From: a virus
Reading direction: 5' to 3' (one strand)
DNA: 37,726 nt
Virus record (IMG/VR): IMGVR_UViG_3300031673_000219
Span: 1 to 37,726 of that record
The notes beneath the pieces are model-generated. The model made no database searches, was not told the DNA's origin, and was given only the letters and a program-made list of their open reading frames with translations. Below, piece by piece: positions 3-20,365 of the stretch. How positions within the stretch are numbered: the stretch's first letter is position 1; every line of letters starts with the position of its first letter. The position numbers and the translations under genes were made by a program.

Positions 3-3000
3 TTTGCGTGCGCGCACACGCACCCGAAGGAACTTGCGATGGTCGCGCCCGAGCATTACGAGTGGATGCGCGAGAACGTGCTGCATGAGTTGCGCCCGTT
101 GGCCGAAATGCTGGCGACACCGGACGAAGAGTTGCGCTGGTGGAACGCTGCGCCCGTCACGCCCGTGTCGAAGCTGCTGCATCGTGCGAGGCACGAATCA
201 CCTGCATCTACAGCGGGCCAATACTACAGCGACAAAGATCAGTTCTACACAATGACCGTCAACGGTCGCACGGTGATGATGCGTGTTGGGCCTGCCAGCA
301 AGGACGAAGAGGCTGGCTGGGACCGCATGCCCGCGACGATCGACCCAGTGACGCAGTTGCCTCGTTACGAGGGCAGCCTCTTCAATAAGTTTCGATCGCG
401 CGAGTACATGAAGGAAATCTACGACGAAAAAGGCAACCTGCTGGACTCCGATCAGGCGACTCTGTTTCTCGGACAGGGCGACGCGAAGATCGAGAAGTTC
501 GTCGCGGAGTTGGGCGACGATCCGATTGCTGCGTACACGAAGCTGTACGACAAAAAAGGCAAACTCTGGGAGGGCGGAAAAACGAACCTTGGGCGCAAGA
601 TTTTCAATGCGCTAGGCGGCAATCTCGGCAACGCGACTGATGAGCAAATGGCTGCTGGCTTGCACCTCACGCCGGAAGGGCGCGCGAAGATACCAGGCAC
701 GTTAGAGTTTGAGCGCAGACGCGTGGCGAAGCTGCACGCGAAGGGCGAGGATGCGATCCAAGAGCGCCACGAATGGACGCCTGTCGAAATTTCGCCCGAA
801 GAGTTTATGGCGAAGTCGGGCACGTTCAAATTCAACGGTATCCGACTAGCGCCGCCTGAACGACAGACGATGCAGGCGCGCGAGACTGTCGACGGCAAGA
901 GCATGGCGCAGACGTTCTATGATCCGGTCACGGGGAAGCATGAGCCCGTGCTGACGGCGAAGTTGTACGAGCAACGCAACCCTGATGGAACGTGGACCAA
1001 AATTTGGGTGAACGCGTCGAACGCGTTTGCGACTGGCGACAAAATTAAGTTGCCGGATGGCAACGGCAACTGGCGTTGGACCGTGTTGACGGAGGATATG
1101 CCGACTGACCCGCACAAGTTGGCGAAGCAGATCGGCGGCTGCACTGGCGCGTCGATCCTTGCCGAGAACCATCGCTACGGGCGTGGGCAGATCATGGACC
1201 CTGTGTTGGCGTCGCTGCTGAATCCAGGCGGGCGCGTAGACATTCAAAACGCAGGCGACTTGATTGACCTGATGCGCAAGGCGGCAGAAGCCACTGAGCC
1301 CCGCCGCACATGGGTGTCTATTTCAGGCAAGGCAGAGCAAGGCGCGGAACGCGGTCTGGCGCATATCGAAGTCGAGTGGGACGGCAAGGGACCGCCGAAA
1401 GTCGTTGGCGACTACTGGGCAAGGCAACTGGGCAAGTCCAGTATCCGCATTGACGAACTGCTCGACGCGAATAACGAGATCCGTTTGCCGCGTGTGATCG
1501 ATCGTCGCGGCGAAGCAAAAAAGAAAGTGCCGATCAAACCCGGTGTGATCGGGTGGATTCTTTACCCCGGCAGCGACAAGCGGATACTTGCTCGCGTGAT
1601 CAAGCGAGCGAAGGACGGTTGGACTGTGATGCCCGAAGCAGGGCAAGGCGCGGGCATCAAACAAGTGCTGCTGCGCGTTGACGCAGTGACGCCGCGCGAA
1701 GCTGGCATCATTCCGGCGACTGGCAAAAAGGACGTGCGGCGTAGGTTTGTGGAGCCGTTGCAGAGCCACGTACTTCTGTACGCAGACGAAGTGGTCACAG
1801 GGTCGGCTATCGAGGAAGGGTCGGGCGTAATCAGGATCAAGCTGCCTAAAGACGGATCTATGACGCGTGACCGCATCCTCCAAATGGAGGGCGTGTACGA
1901 GCCCGCGCTCGATCCTGATCAGGACGCAGACGACGCGCCGATCGGGATCAACATATCCGACCTACCGGCACTGCGAAAAGCACTTGGCGGATTTATGATG
2001 GAGGATCGCGTGCGGGCGATGCTCGATATCGCGATGGTCGCTGAACGCAGTGTGTCCGAGCAAGTCGGGCGCAAGAACATCGCGAAGACGGAGGACTTCA
2101 TCCAGCCTAACGGCAACATCAACCCAGACGGGCTGCTGCGCGGCATGCGCGCAGACGACGACGGGTTCCAGCCGGGCGAGCACCGGATAACAGCCTTGCA
2201 GAAACTGGCAAACAACGGCGGGCGCATGATGGCTGCGCACTTCATGGGTACAGGCAAGACGGGTCTTGCGATCATGGCGTCCGCAATGATGCGCAACTTG
2301 GTGGACGGCAACGGAGCACCGCACCCCAACCGCACGTCGAAGAAAACGATCATTGTAGTGCCGCTGAACACTGCCGAGAACTGGTTTCAAGAATTCAAGC
2401 AACGGGCCGGATACGTTCCTACGCTTGCAGGCGCAGCGACGCTTGCAGGCGCACAGCAGCTACCCAAGCTGCCGCCGCGCGGTGCAAAGGACACTGACGA
2501 GGCGTTCCGCAAGAAAGTGATTCAGCATTGGAAGGATCAAATAGAGAAGCGTCCTGGTATGTGGGATCCGTTCAACGACACAAACAACGAACTGGTTTGC
2601 CCGTACGAGTATTTCAGAGATCACTCTGAAGCGTTGCTCGCGACGGGTCTGTTCGACGGCATGGTGGTTGACGAAGCGCACAAGATCGCCAACGACAACG
2701 AAGTATCTAAAGCTGTCGAGCGGTGGAACCCGCACATGAAGCTGTTCCTGGCTATGACAGGCACGCCGGTCAATAACACGCTGCACACGGTGCCTCGCTT
2801 GCTGCGTCTGATCACGGCGGGCGCTGTTGATCTCGGCACCGAAGATCAGTTTGAAAACGAGTATCTGGTCGCGAGTGCAACGCAGCGTGCGTTGGGCGTG
2901 AAGAATCCGCGCAAGTTGGATTTGAATCCGATGCGTGCGGGCAAGCTGGCACGCTATCTGTTTCAATACTTCGACGTGAAAAACACCACGGACGTCAAAG

Positions 3001-5840
3001 GCCAGAACATGCCAGCGGTGTTGCTGGACGAAAACCAGCCCGCGCACATGACCGGCATGCAGGCGGTGATGTACCGCGCTGCGATGGCGCAAATGTCAGA
3101 CGAGGATCGCACCTCGCTTGAATCGAGCGCGAGCCTTGGGTTGGATGAAACAGAGCTACTGAGCGAAGAGGCGAAGGCGTCTGTTGCACGCGCGCGTGGC
3201 ATCGCGAACTGCGCGGCGTACAAAGCCCCAGACGCAAGCGAGGAATTGCAATACGACGCGTCCGTTGCGCTCACGAATAAGCGCGGTGAGGTGACGATCA
3301 CCACAGTGCCGCGCACATTCAAGTTGCCCAGCTATGAAGAAATCATGGACAAGAAAACTGGGTGGAACGGCAAGTGGCCGTCTATTCAGGACGTGGCTGA
3401 CGAGAAAATCCACGGCGGATATTTTGAGGCGCTGCAAAAATACTCTGAGCGTTTGTTTGGCGTAGACTACTCGACACTTGCAGGCACGAAGATCGACCCA
3501 ACGATTCTGAAGCAGATCAAGGAGCGCACGTACACCACAGTGACTGGGCAGAAGTGGACGGATAAGGTTCTGAATCAGGACTACGGTCCCGAGGGCATGA
3601 TCGCGCGCGGCACGCAGGCGGAAACTGGCGGCGTGATCGAACCGATCCCATACAAGTTCACAGACGAGCATGGGCACGAACACATTGGCGTTGTTCCCAA
3701 CGGCACGCTGTTCGTGCGCGACTCGACAGCCAAAGCCAAGGGCATGTTCTATGCGTCGTCTGACTGGGATCACACCGGGCGCATGGACACGTCTGGCGAA
3801 GAGGGCGAAGACGTTGGCGACAGCGACGACAAGAAAACAGTCAAGCAATTGAAGGCTGCCGGTTGGACTGAGCACCCGGAAGACAACGACAGGATTTGGA
3901 ACCCGGATACTGGCGAGGAACGCAAGAAGCCTAAGCTGTGGGATGAGGGCAAGGGCGTTCGTAATCAAGCACCCAAGGTCGGTCACGAAAAGCACACGAT
4001 CCAACGTGGTCTTGAGCGTAGGCACGAGCGAGCGCAGTACGACGCAGTGGTCACGCATAACAACGCGAAGACGGATGCGTTGGAAGGTTGGATCAAGAAC
4101 AACTTGGCGAAGCACACGGGCGCTGGCGGCAACGACACGCAGTTCATTCTGTTCGGCAACCGCATTGGTTCATCCATGCGCACGATGGAAGCCAAGCTGC
4201 GGCAAATGGGTTTCCAAGACGTCAACGAAGCGCTGGGCAACGCGGACGTATCCGGCGAAGGCGACCGCAAGCAAACGCCGAAAAAATACTTTGTGACGTA
4301 CATGGGCAAGGGCGCGACGCTGGGTGAGCGCAACCTGAACAGCGAAATCTTCCGGCACAAGCAGGACAAGTTCGGCAAGGACACTGGCGTGAGCATGTTC
4401 GTGCACCGCACGCTGTACGGCACCACCGGCAAGCCGCCTGGACTTGGTGTCATTGCCGAGGGGTGGGGCCGCAGCGAACGCAAGAACATTGCGGCAGCGT
4501 TCCGCACGGACGTTGTGTTGGATCTCAAGCACGACAAGGCGAAGGGTAAAAAAGAGTCGTTTGAGTTGGAGGTGCCCATGCGTGTTATGGGCGTTGCTGG
4601 CCCGAAGGGTACTGTGGTGCCCAACTACGTTTACGAAAGCGCGTTGGATGCGAAGACTAGCAAACGTGTGAAGGACTTGGAGCGCCTTATCCGCACCTCT
4701 AGCGGCACGACGATGAAAGGCCATGAATCGGAACTGCGCGGTCTGCTGAAGCCGTATTGGGTGGCTACTGTGCCGCTGTCGGATAAACAGCAGTACGTGT
4801 TCAACAACACGCAATTCATGTGCGCGTCGGATGCAGCGAACGTAGGTTTGAATTGGCCCGCTGCGCACTTGGCGATGTACGACTCTCTTTTCTCGCCGCT
4901 AGATGAGTGGCAGCGCATCACGCGCGCCGCGCGCATGTTGCCCGCTGCGACGTCGCGTGAAGCCAAGCCGATCGTAGACAAGATCGACGCAATCATTCGC
5001 GCCAACGAAGAGAAAAAAGGCGCGTCGATCAAGGACTACGATCACACGACGGCGCTTGCCGCGATCAACGATGCACTCGACACGTTGGACCCAGGCGACC
5101 GCAAGAAGTTAGATGAACTTGGCGAAGGCGCACCGGACCAACTGATCGAGGCGTACTTTGCGAAGCGCTCACTTGAGCGGATACAGGGTCTGCAAGAGTC
5201 GACGCTTGCTGATCTGAAAGCGCACGGCTACTGGGGCGACCCGGAAGAGCGCGAACGCTTGAAAGCGATTGCTGCGGCGGGCGATGGTGCCACTAGGAAT
5301 CGCATCCTTCAGCAACTCAAACGCATGTATATCCCACCTGAAGCGGTGCAACAGAGCGACGTGGTGAACACTATCATTCAGCAGCACCTCTCGCCGTTTG
5401 AGCGAAAGATGATGCAGGACCGCCGCTTCTTGGTTGAAGTGAAGCGCTTCACTACCTCAGTCGATATCCCCATTACAGAAGAGATCACGATCCCGGTGGC
5501 AGGCAAAAAGAAGGGCAAGAAAGTGACCGTGCAGACGGGCGAGTACAGTATGGAATCGCCGTGCAATGCAGAGCGTTCGCAACTGATGCAGAGCCGTGCG
5601 AAAATGACTGCCGTCGAAGCGTTCCTGAACATCGCGCAGAACGCGCAGCCCGAGACAACGGATTATGACTTCGTGGCTGCGAGCGTTGCCAGCGCACGCA
5701 CAACGTCCACGCTGAATAAAAACGATGATCCGCTTGCGGATCGCATGCTGGATGAATCGGTGCACTACGCGCAAGAACTGGTTGCCAAGTCGGCGCGATA
5801 CGCGAGGCGGTTCGTGGTTCACGTTGGAGGGATGCGATGA
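3..5840 (+). CDS. Giant SF2/SNF2-type helicase protein, 5' partial (polyvalent/DarB-like)
   Basis: At least 1,933 residues. Numbering from the ATG at 39: Walker A GTGKT near residue 737, DEAH box (VVDEAH) near 878, TGTP motif III near 907, and a motif V/VI region (SDAANVGLNWP then QRITRAAR) near 1600-1630. These are the ordered motifs of a superfamily II, SNF2-like ATP-dependent DNA translocase. About 700 residues separate motif III from motif VI, far more than usual, so a large insertion or extra domain lies between them. The frame is open to the left edge with no stop. The codons before ATG 39 encode FACAHTHPKEL leading into MVAPEHYEWM, which resembles the C-terminal end of phage metallopeptidase domains (FA...P......YE.M), so I treat the gene as 5' truncated. 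An AAGGA seven bases before ATG 39 leaves an internal or true start possible. The size and the position beside the head genes suggest an injected polyvalent or DarB-like antirestriction protein; this is inference. The helicase call is firm, the biological role is not. Confidence 0.8.
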   Translation, partial: FACAHTHPKELAMVAPEHYEWMRENVLHELRPLAEMLATPDEELRWWNAAPVTPVSKLLHRARHESPASTAGQYYSDKDQFYTMTVNGRTVMMRVGPASKDEEAGWDRMPATIDPVTQLPRYEGSLFNKFRSREYMKEIYDEKGNLLDSDQATLFLGQGDAKIEKFVAELGDDPIAAYTKLYDKKGKLWEGGKTNLGRKIFNALGGNLGNATDEQMAAGLHLTPEGRAKIPGTLEFERRRVAKLHAKGEDAIQERHEWTPVEISPEEFMAKSGTFKFNGIRLAPPERQTMQARETVDGKSMAQTFYDPVTGKHEPVLTAKLYEQRNPDGTWTKIWVNASNAFATGDKIKLPDGNGNWRWTVLTEDMPTDPHKLAKQIGGCTGASILAENHRYGRGQIMDPVLASLLNPGGRVDIQNAGDLIDLMRKAAEATEPRRTWVSISGKAEQGAERGLAHIEVEWDGKGPPKVVGDYWARQLGKSSIRIDELLDANNEIRLPRVIDRRGEAKKKVPIKPGVIGWILYPGSDKRILARVIKRAKDGWTVMPEAGQGAGIKQVLLRVDAVTPREAGIIPATGKKDVRRRFVEPLQSHVLLYADEVVTGSAIEEGSGVIRIKLPKDGSMTRDRILQMEGVYEPALDPDQDADDAPIGINISDLPALRKALGGFMMEDRVRAMLDIAMVAERSVSEQVGRKNIAKTEDFIQPNGNINPDGLLRGMRADDDGFQPGEHRITALQKLANNGGRMMAAHFMGTGKTGLAIMASAMMRNLVDGNGAPHPNRTSKKTIIVVPLNTAENWFQEFKQRAGYVPTLAGAATLAGAQQLPKLPPRGAKDTDEAFRKKVIQHWKDQIEKRPGMWDPFNDTNNELVCPYEYFRDHSEALLATGLFDGMVVDEAHKIANDNEVSKAVERWNPHMKLFLAMTGTPVNNTLHTVPRLLRLITAGAVDLGTEDQFENEYLVASATQRALGVKNPRKLDLNPMRAGKLARYLFQYFDVKNTTDVKGQNMPAVLLDENQPAHMTGMQAVMYRAAMAQMSDEDRTSLESSASLGLDETELLSEEAKASVARARGIANCAAYKAPDASEELQYDASVALTNKRGEVTITTVPRTFKLPSYEEIMDKKTGWNGKWPSIQDVADEKIHGGYFEALQKYSERLFGVDYSTLAGTKIDPTILKQIKERTYTTVTGQKWTDKVLNQDYGPEGMIARGTQAETGGVIEPIPYKFTDEHGHEHIGVVPNGTLFVRDSTAKAKGMFYASSDWDHTGRMDTSGEEGEDVGDSDDKKTVKQLKAAGWTEHPEDNDRIWNPDTGEERKKPKLWDEGKGVRNQAPKVGHEKHTIQRGLERRHERAQYDAVVTHNNAKTDALEGWIKNNLAKHTGAGGNDTQFILFGNRIGSSMRTMEAKLRQMGFQDVNEALGNADVSGEGDRKQTPKKYFVTYMGKGATLGERNLNSEIFRHKQDKFGKDTGVSMFVHRTLYGTTGKPPGLGVIAEGWGRSERKNIAAAFRTDVVLDLKHDKAKGKKESFELEVPMRVMGVAGPKGTVVPNYVYESALDAKTSKRVKDLERLIRTSSGTTMKGHESELRGLLKPYWVATVPLSDKQQYVFNNTQFMCASDAANVGLNWPAAHLAMYDSLFSPLDEWQRITRAARMLPAATSREAKPIVDKIDAIIRANEEKKGASIKDYDHTTALAAINDALDTLDPGDRKKLDELGEGAPDQLIEAYFAKRSLERIQGLQESTLADLKAHGYWGDPEERERLKAIAAAGDGATRNRILQQLKRMYIPPEAVQQSDVVNTIIQQHLSPFERKMMQDRRFLVEVKRFTTSVDIPITEEITIPVAGKKKGKKVTVQTGEYSMESPCNAERSQLMQSRAKMTAVEAFLNIAQNAQPETTDYDFVAASVASARTTSTLNKNDDPLADRMLDESVHYAQELVAKSARYARRFVVHVGGMR

Positions 5841-17138: not shown

Positions 17139-17582
17139 ATGGGCGCAATTCCAGGCGGCAAACTCGGCAACGTAGTCTCAGGCGCACGCGTAAAGCTGCT
17201 GTTTGAGGGCAAGACATTCGCGTACTGTACCAGCGTCTCTTTTTCGGAAGAGATCACGCAGGATCCTGTGGAGGTTCTTGACCAGTTGGAAGTCGCGGAA
17301 CACGTCGCTACGGCGTATCGCGTGACGTTCACTGCACAGCATGTGCGCGTGCTGAATCAGTCGATCAAGAAACGCGACGGCATCCTGATCTTCCCACAGC
17401 TTAAGAGCATCCTGAATGCGCCTGAGTTGTCGGCGTCGGTCGAAGACACGACCGGCCTTGTGATCGCTACGTTGGTGCGCGTGAAGGCGCAGCGGTACAC
17501 GGTGCAAATCGGCGCACGCGGTATCGTGCTTGTGGACTGCGACTTCGTGGCGATCAAGATCACTGACGAATCCGAAGCCTGA
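17139..17582 (+). CDS. Tail tube protein, 147 aa
   Basis: ATG 17139, with TTGGAGA upstream. The protein is strand-rich and typical in length for contractile-tail tube proteins (about 140-170 residues), with 'GARVKLLFEGKTFAYCTSVSF' at the start, a long alpha-helix-breaking loop (EVLDQLEVAEHVATAYR) and a final strand pair ending in 'VLVDCDFVAIKI'. It stacks in hexameric rings to form the inner tube through which DNA passes. Its place directly after the sheath gene and before the chaperone genes is canonical. Confidence 0.82.
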   Translation: MGAIPGGKLGNVVSGARVKLLFEGKTFAYCTSVSFSEEITQDPVEVLDQLEVAEHVATAYRVTFTAQHVRVLNQSIKKRDGILIFPQLKSILNAPELSASVEDTTGLVIATLVRVKAQRYTVQIGARGIVLVDCDFVAIKITDESEA

Positions 17583-17635
17583 TTCGTATCCGTCATGGCG
17601 ACGGTGCGTTAGCACTCGTGGAATAGGAGTTGGTT

Positions 17636-18175
17636 ATGGATCCAGTATCGCCCCGCAAGGGGGCAGCCGCAGTGACGCGCGTAGTCGCGAAGCCCGCTGC
17701 TGAAATATCACTCAGCCCGAAGACGACGCTTGTGCTCGATGTTACCGCTGTCAGCGGTAAGAAGTACGAAGGGAAGTTTCAATTCAAGGTGCCCAGCATG
17801 GGCGACCGCATTGACATTGCGGCGCTGCGCTCACGGTATCTGCAAGAGTTGGAACACGTCGACAGCACGGGCACGAACATCGCGGACGCTCTGGCGTACC
17901 TGTCGATCACGATCGACGGCGCGTCCGCACCGGCATGGTGGCGTGAATCGAACAACGGCATTGACCTGTTCCATTACGAACCTTTGTTCAAATTGTACGC
18001 ATTGGGGAGGGCGTACGAGAGTACCTTTCTCGGATACACTCCAGACGATTCCGCAACTGATGGAGCGAATGAAAACGGACCCGCTTCTGATGCTGACGGG
18101 GGCGTGGATGGCGACGTTCAACCTGCCGTCGAACGATCCGAGGTTCTTGCAGAGTTCACCGCGCGATCTAGCTGA
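17636..18175 (+). CDS. Tail assembly chaperone, short form (G-like), 179 aa
   Basis: ATG 17636 has TAGGAG six bases upstream. The region to about residue 131 looks like a phage tail chaperone: a beta-rich N-terminal part (KTTLVLDVTAVSGKKYEGKF), then 'GDRIDIAALRSRYLQEL' and 'GIDLFHYEPLFKLYALGRAYE'. Beyond residue 131 the frame becomes acidic and low in G/C at third positions, while another frame takes over (see the next entry). The gene sits between tube and tape measure genes, where lambda-type G and GT chaperones lie; those bind the tape measure during tail assembly. The last 48 residues in this frame may be the short form's own tail. Confidence 0.7.
   Translation: MDPVSPRKGAAAVTRVVAKPAAEISLSPKTTLVLDVTAVSGKKYEGKFQFKVPSMGDRIDIAALRSRYLQELEHVDSTGTNIADALAYLSITIDGASAPAWWRESNNGIDLFHYEPLFKLYALGRAYESTFLGYTPDDSATDGANENGPASDADGGVDGDVQPAVERSEVLAEFTARSS
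18023..18031 (+). other. Candidate +1 ribosomal frameshift site ACC UUU CUC
   Basis: Upstream reading is in the frame of 17636; downstream coding lies one base forward. At ACC-TTT-CTC (TTT at 18026-18028) a Phe tRNA can slip from UUU to UUC (+1), after which the frame reads SDTLQTIPQLMERM. G/C at third positions changes from the upstream frame to the +1 frame right here (about 8 of 10 before in the first frame; about 16 of 23 after in the second frame). The CC-UUU-C context resembles the known +1 site of influenza PA-X. A sequencing indel would look the same. Confidence 0.45.
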
Positions 18176-18419
18176 ACAGGTTCTGCTGTTCCAGGCGACT
18201 CGCGCCAGCCAAGCGGAAATGCAACGCGCGTTTGTGGCGGCGGCTGCTAGTGAAAAGCGAACGGGCGCGGGCGGTGTGTTGGACCGCAGTGCGGAAGCGG
18301 CTGCGAACGCGGATACGCCGTTGCTGACTGGCGACCCTGAATGGGACGCCGTAGAGCTTGCGGCCACAGACGAATCAAGCGAACCTTTTGACGCGAGCTT
18401 TCTCGCCGGGATCGTCTGA
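18030..18419 (+). CDS. Tail assembly chaperone, frameshift extension (T-like domain)
   Basis: From about 18030 the coding frame is shifted +1 from the upstream chaperone frame. It reads SDTLQTIPQLMERM and on to LLMLTGAW, then a helical stretch (RASQAEMQRAFVAAAASEKR), and ends 'DASFLAGIV'. By analogy with lambda GT it is the T domain of a fusion made by frameshifting, giving a chaperone of about 260 residues. An independent start at ATG 18060 would overlap a TGA in the third frame but has no Shine-Dalgarno. The stop overlaps the tape measure start (TGATG). Exact start is uncertain; the coding status is well supported by codon use. Confidence 0.65.
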   Translation, partial: SDTLQTIPQLMERMKTDPLLMLTGAWMATFNLPSNDPRFLQSSPRDLAEQVLLFQATRASQAEMQRAFVAAAASEKRTGAGGVLDRSAEAAANADTPLLTGDPEWDAVELAATDESSEPFDASFLAGIV

Positions 18420-20365
18420 TGACTGACAAGAACCGCACTACCCTTGAGATCGCTGTTGACGACCGCGCGCTCAAAGGGCTGCGTGCGACGTTCGACCGCG
18501 CCTTTGCCCCAGCGTCCGTGCGTGCGCAATTGGTGGCACAGGAAAAGCTGCTGAAGACGACCACGCGCCTTCGCATGGAACTGGAGAGGATCGCCAAGCT
18601 GCAAGGGCGCACTGGCGGCGCAGCGCCCGCTGGCGGCGGTGGGGGCGACGGTGGGGGCGGTGGAGGCACAGCGCCCGCTGGCGGGGGCGGTACAGCGCCT
18701 GGTGGCGGCGGGGGCGGTACAGCGCCTGGTGGCGGCGGGGGCGGCGGGGGCGGCGGGTTTGGGCGGCGGGTAGACCGCGCTATGGATCGCGTGCACGGGC
18801 GTAAGCAGGAGAAGGAACCAAGTTTCCTGAACCGCACGGGCGCGACCGCGCTTGGTACGTTCGTTGGCCAACGGGCTGCGCACGCGGGCACTGCCGCCGC
18901 GTCGGGCAGTGGGCTGGTGTCTGGGCTCGCGCGCGGGCTGATCCCGTTTGTGGGGGAGGCGCTTGGCGCGGCGATCGATCACGCGGCTTCGCTGGCAGAA
19001 AAAGCAGCAGCCATTGACGCAGCACGCGCGGGCGTGTTCGCACAAACCGGAATGACCGGCGGGCAATATCCGGGCATGGCCAGGCTTGGTATCGGCCCAA
19101 GCGAAGCCGTTGGCATGGCCGCATCCGTCGCGCGCGAATCCGGCATGCGTGGCGACGATGCGCGGTTGCCGGATCAGATCATGCGATCGACGTTGCTTGA
19201 GCGAGCCACCGGGATCAAGTCCGCGCCGCTGTTCGGCGCAATGGAAACCGCAGGCGGCAGCGCTGCCCTATCCGAAAACGTGCTGACTACCGCGATCACG
19301 GTGGCGCTCGACACCGGCATGCGGAAGTCGAAGTTGCCCGACTTGGTGGATCGCATAGCGAGCGGCATCACGGAGCTTCGCACGAAGGGCATGCAGATCG
19401 ACCCTGAAGGCATGTCTAATGCGATGCGCATAATGGGCGCTGTAACTGGCATGCAGGGCGAGCCAGTCGAGCACATGGCGAAGACGGCGATGGACACGCT
19501 GCGCGGTGTTGGCGGGCAGCAAGGCTTCATGGCGGCACTGGCGATGAACACAGCGATGAAGAGCGGCAAGTCGCCGTACGAAGCAGCGATGGACCTGCAA
19601 GAGAATCCCGAGAAGTACCTTGGGGAAATTATGAAGGAGGTAAACGCGCGCGGCGGCACCGCCGAAGGTCGCGCGATGGCATTCAAACAATGGATGCCTG
19701 ACTTGTCGGATCGTGAAGCGCTGTCGATGGCGCAAGGCACTGTGCCTGATAAGTTGAAGCCCGATTCTGAAGCCGGATACGATTACGTTGGCGGCGAGCT
19801 TAATAAGTACAAGCCTGGTTGGGCTTCGACCAAAGCGGGCATAGAACAGAAGGAGGTTAGTGCGGGCTACAAAGTAGCCGGTGATATGTTTGCCGTGAAG
19901 GAAACAGAAACTGCACTCGGCATCAAAGCTGCGAAGTACGCAGCGCCTATCGCAGACGCGGGCGCAAAGAAAGTGAACGAGTACGGCGACGCCTTCACAA
20001 AGGGGCCGGAAGCGGTTCTCACTTTGATCGGGTCGGACATAAAGTCGATGTTTAGTGGGCTACTTAACATCGGAGCGGATGTTGCGAAGGCGGTTAGCGA
20101 AGCACTGTCTGGCATAGAATGGGGTCCGGTATTCAAGCTAATGGGTGAAGACTTTAAGGCAATGCTGGACAAGGTAATGACAGTTTTCAACTTCAGAGGC
20201 GCAGCAACAGGACCAGCCGTTCCAGGCGGAACCCCCGGCACAGGCGGTGGGCCTTTGTCCGTCCCTGATCCTACCTACGGCGGCGTGGGCGCGTTCAACG
20301 GTGTCATGCGCCTACCTGAACGCGGTGGCACGCGTCCTCTGTACGAACTTGGGGTCGGGGCGTGA
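18419..20365 (+). CDS. Tape measure protein, 648 aa
   Basis: ATG overlaps the stop of the chaperone frame. The sequence is largely helical with Ala/Gly-rich segments, an N-terminal coiled region (about 20-60), a Gly-rich linker (about 67-118), a hydrophobic stretch (GTFVGQRAAHAGTAAASG and GLARGLIPFVGEALGAA, about 140-185), and long helical repeats to about residue 590. This, and the position after the chaperones and before the hub, identifies the ruler protein threaded through the tube. At about 0.15 nm per residue it predicts a tail near 100 nm long. No lysozyme or peptidase motif is evident. Confidence 0.78.
   Translation: MTDKNRTTLEIAVDDRALKGLRATFDRAFAPASVRAQLVAQEKLLKTTTRLRMELERIAKLQGRTGGAAPAGGGGGDGGGGGGTAPAGGGGTAPGGGGGGTAPGGGGGGGGGGFGRRVDRAMDRVHGRKQEKEPSFLNRTGATALGTFVGQRAAHAGTAAASGSGLVSGLARGLIPFVGEALGAAIDHAASLAEKAAAIDAARAGVFAQTGMTGGQYPGMARLGIGPSEAVGMAASVARESGMRGDDARLPDQIMRSTLLERATGIKSAPLFGAMETAGGSAALSENVLTTAITVALDTGMRKSKLPDLVDRIASGITELRTKGMQIDPEGMSNAMRIMGAVTGMQGEPVEHMAKTAMDTLRGVGGQQGFMAALAMNTAMKSGKSPYEAAMDLQENPEKYLGEIMKEVNARGGTAEGRAMAFKQWMPDLSDREALSMAQGTVPDKLKPDSEAGYDYVGGELNKYKPGWASTKAGIEQKEVSAGYKVAGDMFAVKETETALGIKAAKYAAPIADAGAKKVNEYGDAFTKGPEAVLTLIGSDIKSMFSGLLNIGADVAKAVSEALSGIEWGPVFKLMGEDFKAMLDKVMTVFNFRGAATGPAVPGGTPGTGGGPLSVPDPTYGGVGAFNGVMRLPERGGTRPLYELGVGA
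18619..18772 (+). repeat. Gly-rich tandem repeats in the tape measure gene
   Basis: Units of 24-27 bases encode variations of TAPGGGGGG; two near-perfect copies have a 27-base period (for example TACAGCGCCT at 18691 and 18718), with a degenerate copy 24 bases earlier. Such a run of G-rich repeats is a hot spot for slippage and length variation, and is translated as a flexible linker of about 50 residues. Confidence 0.8.

Follow-up and report, generated by a model that had tools for sequence, protein, structure and literature searches.

The window analysed here is the whole 37,726-nt stretch of the IMG/VR virus record IMGVR_UViG_3300031673_000219. Its tail region harbors a short gene, ORF A, overlapped by a second frame displaced by +1 (Table 1). 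The pair is flanked upstream by a tail tube gene, whose matches to PF09393 (E 0.16), phrog_985 and phrog_365 are all weak, and downstream by a long gene of the tape-measure type. ORF calling gives the +1 frame an open stretch of 17685-18419, and its TGA overlaps the ATG of the tape-measure-type gene at 18419 (TGATG). The in-frame codons at the candidate slip site are ACC (18023), TTT (18026) and CTC (18029), and the predicted fusion comprises residues 1-131 of ORF A followed by 129 residues of the +1 frame, 260 residues in total. The tape-measure-type protein includes a long Gly-rich repeat (GGGG/TAPGGGG, 18604-18770), with a similar run in the related locus L050. At the start of the window (39-5840), a 1933-residue protein with SNF2/helicase domains is encoded, large for a phage structural neighbourhood.

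Table 1. Coordinates of the features at the chaperone locus, in positions of the window.
Feature	Position	Strand	Remarks
Tail tube gene, upstream	17139..17582	+	Weak tail-protein matches; position kept in relatives
Shine-Dalgarno AGGAG for ORF A	17625..17629	+	
ORF A, tail assembly chaperone (probable), short 0-frame product, 179 aa	17636..18175	+	ATG 17636, TGA 18175
SD-like GGGGAGGG	18004..18011	+	GGAGG 18006-18010, ending 15 nt before UUU
Putative +1 slip site UUU-C in ACC-UUU-CUC	18026..18029	+	tRNA-Phe would re-pair from UUU to UUC
+1-frame C-terminal part (C-part), 129 aa	18030..18419	+	Homology in relatives, codon score, substitution phase
Tape-measure-type gene, downstream	18419..20365	+	Position and length; no family match

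Codon log-odds scoring, with 13 long ORFs of the window as the training set, favors frame A as far as 18028 (+10 to +21 per ~100 bases) and the +1 frame after 18030 (+3, +14, +2, +14 and +18), while the score of frame A drops to -29 and -37 past its stop. The transfer of the coding signal near 18026-18030, first perceived in a sequence-only reading of the locus, is thus recovered by the score, which changes frame at 18028/18030. The same reading saw no obvious start or Shine-Dalgarno (SD) sequence for the second part, and in the window no ATG, GTG or TTG preceded by an SD was found for it, the ATG at 18060 included.

ORF A matches PHROG tail assembly chaperones, and its family profile aligns with the SPO1/Herelleviridae chaperone profile with an hhalign probability of 98% (E 5e-15). 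Its AlphaFold model (pLDDT 83) matches predicted phage structures, among them that of the Bacillus phage JL tail assembly chaperone (Foldseek E 1.6e-4). These profile matches and the predicted fold uphold the chaperone identity proposed at the outset and support the assignment of ORF A as a probable SPO1/Herelleviridae-type tail assembly chaperone. The C-part is collinear with that of SPO1, with an LPxxDxRF..L motif in common, and its hhalign match is marginal (E 0.0007-0.003, probability 11-26%). The order tube, chaperone, tape measure is found in the window and is the same in its relatives. The only Herelleviridae-type similarities seen in this virus are those of the chaperone, the MCP (phrog_752, E 1.5e-87) and the sheath. 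A Pfam search with ORF A and the C-part returned no credible family, a PDB fold search returned no match, and the SPO1 protein as query gave no hit in the viral contig collection.

Relatives were found by sheath-based scans of IMG/VR and of bacterial genome contigs (sheath identity 31-65%), and 25 loci, window included, were examined, 22 of them distinct. In all 25, the tube gene is followed by an overlapping pair whose two frames stand in this same relation. A single uninterrupted frame, which in the sequence-only reading would have spoken against recoding, occurs in none of the 24 related loci. In some relatives, extra ORFs or ~0.6-1.5 kb are inserted between sheath and tube or between tube and chaperone (L029 6289-7764, L032 6874-8818, L052 7953-8534).

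At the position homologous to the slip codon, an in-frame TTT is present in 25/25 loci, the window and its 24 relatives alike. The next base is C in 23 of them, window included, and T in two (L040 and L043), so that the +1 codon is always TTY. Among the Phe codons that these loci use in their sheath, tape-measure and N-part genes, ~22% are TTT (261 vs 919); in L031, L032 and L037 the slip-site TTT is the sole TTT in the counted genes, and five conserved Phe columns of the sheath show TTT in just 2-7 of 20-23 loci. From the slip codon on, the C-part has homology with the +1 ORF in every relative, and the residues that would follow the slip align from the first one, a Phe (FSDTLQTIPQL in the window, FTEGMRTIPKL in L013, FTASVRTPLQM in L019/L033). 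Between related pairs, the substitution maximum falls on codon position three of frame A ahead of the site; once frame A has ended, it falls on phase 1, which is codon position three in the +1 frame. Within the overlap this signal is weak. Re-pairing of a P-site tRNA-Phe in the +1 direction would require UUU-Y, and its invariance therefore supports slippage; P-site slippage on UUU_C is the established model for the influenza PA-X site (PMC3498833). Neither a -2 shift nor an internal start would demand a UUU-Y at every site, which speaks against both. The +1 device is not universal: L003, remotely related in the N-part, lacks TTT-C and begins its second gene at a distinct ATG just after the stop. 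This distant relative (4010-4874) has an AWWRESNNG motif in common with the window.

The slip codon recurs outside this clade. Twenty Herelleviridae-type loci were sampled from Spounavirinae, Twortvirinae, Brockvirinae, Jasinkavirinae and Bastillevirinae and from Lactobacillus, Brochothrix and Aerococcus phages, including two IMG/VR records related to Goe8 (L059 and L060). A single in-frame TTT-C lies at the equivalent place in 20/20, with CGN as the next codon in 18. The annotation of SPO1 gp11.1 names it a +1 slippage product, and that of the Adastra protein a +1 frameshift product; LfeInf and Quidividi carry joined products in their annotation, and the paper on phage Moonbeam mentions an "unusual +1 frameshift" in the chaperone (PMC4299906). 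SPO1 (gp10.2/gp10.2-gp11.1), Adastra and Moonbeam resemble the window in gene order (sheath, tube, chaperone, tape measure), in their homologous N-part and in the +1 direction, and the UUU-C of SPO1 (UCC-UUU-CGU) and of Goe26 (ACC-UUU-CGA) is found at the same place. In contrast, the window is GC-rich and remote from Herelleviridae in sequence, with a strongly diverged C-part, and its 0-frame A-site codon is CUC instead of the CGN of most Herelleviridae. As this codon is also CTG in LfeInf and CAA in L060, an A-site CGN is common, not defining. The +1 shift at UUU-C proposed from the window alone is therefore corroborated by both sets of loci and by the two records annotated as +1 products. 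The view that +1 shifts are rare does not hold for this chaperone lineage, in which +1 is the rule. A literature search of partial coverage found no phage paper naming UUU-C slippage in tail genes. In RefSeq Herelleviridae, the +1-frame C-part is found as a separate "RNA polymerase beta subunit" gene (L007 830-1366, L062 1391-1966, L067 1433-1900, L068 1400-1858), a label that looks like a misannotation.

An SD-like element is present upstream of the site in the window's clade, whereas no conserved GGAGG was seen at Herelleviridae sites. GGAGG precedes UUU in 16 of the 21 distinct loci, for 0.05 expected per locus from its rate in the sheath and tape-measure genes, at a distance of 20-21 nt in 15 of these 16 and of 15 nt in the window. 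Where this amino-acid context is encoded, GGAGG is chosen in 13/15 cases here and in 23/173 elsewhere (Fisher P 5e-9, the loci being related and not independent trials). Known SD-stimulated shifts have spacings of 10-14 nt for -1 and of 3 nt for the +1 shift of prfB, and 20 nt is longer than these. In the GC-rich clade, where an Arg codon directly precedes UUU, it is CGA or AGG in 10/11, for a background of 24% for CGA, AGG and AGA together. No downstream stimulatory RNA structure stands out in the window, where z is +0.9 to +1.3, nor is one common to the sites, 2 of 13 reaching a z of about -2.2 to -2.7. The heptamer CGGATAC, a copy of which covers 18031-18037, is over-represented in the window as the sequence-only reading had noticed (49 copies for 2.9 expected, evenly spread on both strands); its supposed part in the signal had to be abandoned, the motif being missing at the site in relatives. 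It is dense in L019/L033 (8-9 per 10 kb), occurs about once per 10 kb in most other relatives, has no conserved flanks and is possibly a host-linked signature motif.

The SD-like element might instead serve a separate gene starting within ORF A, from the ACG at 18015 behind GGGGAGGG, or the second part might start at the ATG at 18060 or 18069. GGAGG, so strongly over-represented in relatives, mostly lies 8-10 nt before a +1-frame AUG or ACG, and L003 does use a separate start. However, an AUG stands behind the element in just 5 of the 21 distinct loci, about as often as TAT/CAT codon usage predicts (210/986), and a standing internal start is therefore not favored; the other loci almost always display ACG, a very poor start. 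The ATG at 18060, which the sequence-only reading had put forward as the rival start, was rejected, having no SD and no conservation in relatives. As neither candidate accounts for the invariant TTT, an internal start is improbable.

Slippage in the other direction has a precedent among tail chaperones. The chaperone pairs of lambda (gpG/gpGT) and Mu resemble that of the window, with a short and a longer frameshifted product encoded before the tape-measure gene; they differ in direction, the shift being -1 in lambda and -2 in Mu (Xu, Hendrix and Duda 2004, as cited in PMC5009743; for Mu, also PMC3498833) and +1 in the window. A Mu-like -2 shift would land in the same frame as a +1 shift, for example on GGG-GGC (18098-18103) at the G-run starting at 18098. 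This GGGGGC is missing in relatives, so that no conserved -2 slip site is found and a Mu-type chaperone was discarded. Homology and codon score place the switch at 18026-18030, 70 nt upstream of the G-run, and a -2 shift at UUU itself would not call for UUU-Y, all of which makes this explanation very improbable.

A frame break in a metagenome contig may always stem from faulty sequencing or from a one-base indel in a decayed gene; here such an error, which had been kept in view from the start, is practically excluded because an independent assembly (L002) matches the window over 8131 bases at 99.99%, differing by a single mismatch and crossing the site ungapped, and because the 24 related contigs have this layout in common. 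Phage tail operons often use translational coupling, but reinitiation at the ORF A stop (18175) has next to no likelihood, as the conserved +1-frame sequence starts ~145 nt before this stop with no conserved start nearby.

The +1 slip has a counterpart in the influenza A PA-X site, UCC-UUU-CGU (PMC3498833), which has the P-site UUU-C and the +1 direction in common with the window and is identical to the SPO1 site in all nine letters. PA-X is, however, an unrelated gene read by a eukaryotic ribosome, and the motif is convergent, with no kinship. The Listeria phages PSA, A118 and A500 also use +1 frameshifts in structural genes (PMC5009743), but in the major tail or capsid protein and at CCC-U, not in a chaperone.

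We consider the locus, with a probability of about 90%, to encode a G/GT-type chaperone pair, the fusion arising from a +1 slip of the P-site tRNA-Phe at UUU-C. Most ribosomes would read ORF A to 18175 and yield the 179-residue chaperone G. In a minority of them, A-site decoding of CUC would be delayed while tRNA-Phe occupies UUU (18026) in the P site, allowing the tRNA to slip one base forward and to re-pair with UUC (18027). The slipped ribosomes would then read the +1 frame to 18419 and produce a 260-residue G-T fusion, expected to connect the tape-measure protein with subunits of the tail tube while the tail is being built. Very probably, then, the phage makes a longer chaperone by a +1 skip at TTT-C, although an A-site CUC instead of CGN, the lack of downstream structure (z +0.9 in the window), the weak phase signal in the overlap, the separate ATG of L003 and the marginal C-part match (hhalign E 0.003, probability 11%) count against it.

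A wider proposal, more doubtful than likely, is that the UUU-Y slip may be an old module that became fixed in chaperones of the SPO1 type, both in phages of Firmicutes and in those of uncultured GC-rich hosts. In the GC-rich clade it would act together with two undescribed stimulators, rare Arg codons (CGA/AGG) in the E site and GGAGG ~20 nt upstream, the latter at a spacing outside that of known SD-stimulated shifts.

The +1 chaperone shift itself was already known from the SPO1 annotation and the Moonbeam paper. The new elements are the invariant UUU-Y kept against codon bias in GC-rich phages, the rare Arg codons before the slip and the upstream SD-like GGAGG. A slip codon so maintained gives good comparative support to the P-site UUU-Y model, and the SD-like element and the E-site codon can now be tested in ordinary reporters. 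For annotation, a fusion may be recognized by a single in-frame UUU-Y close to where the conserved N-part ends, a simple rule as many records miss fusions. The +1 recoding, so far described for individual SPO1-like phages in annotations or reports, now extends to a remote, GC-rich and uncultured clade.
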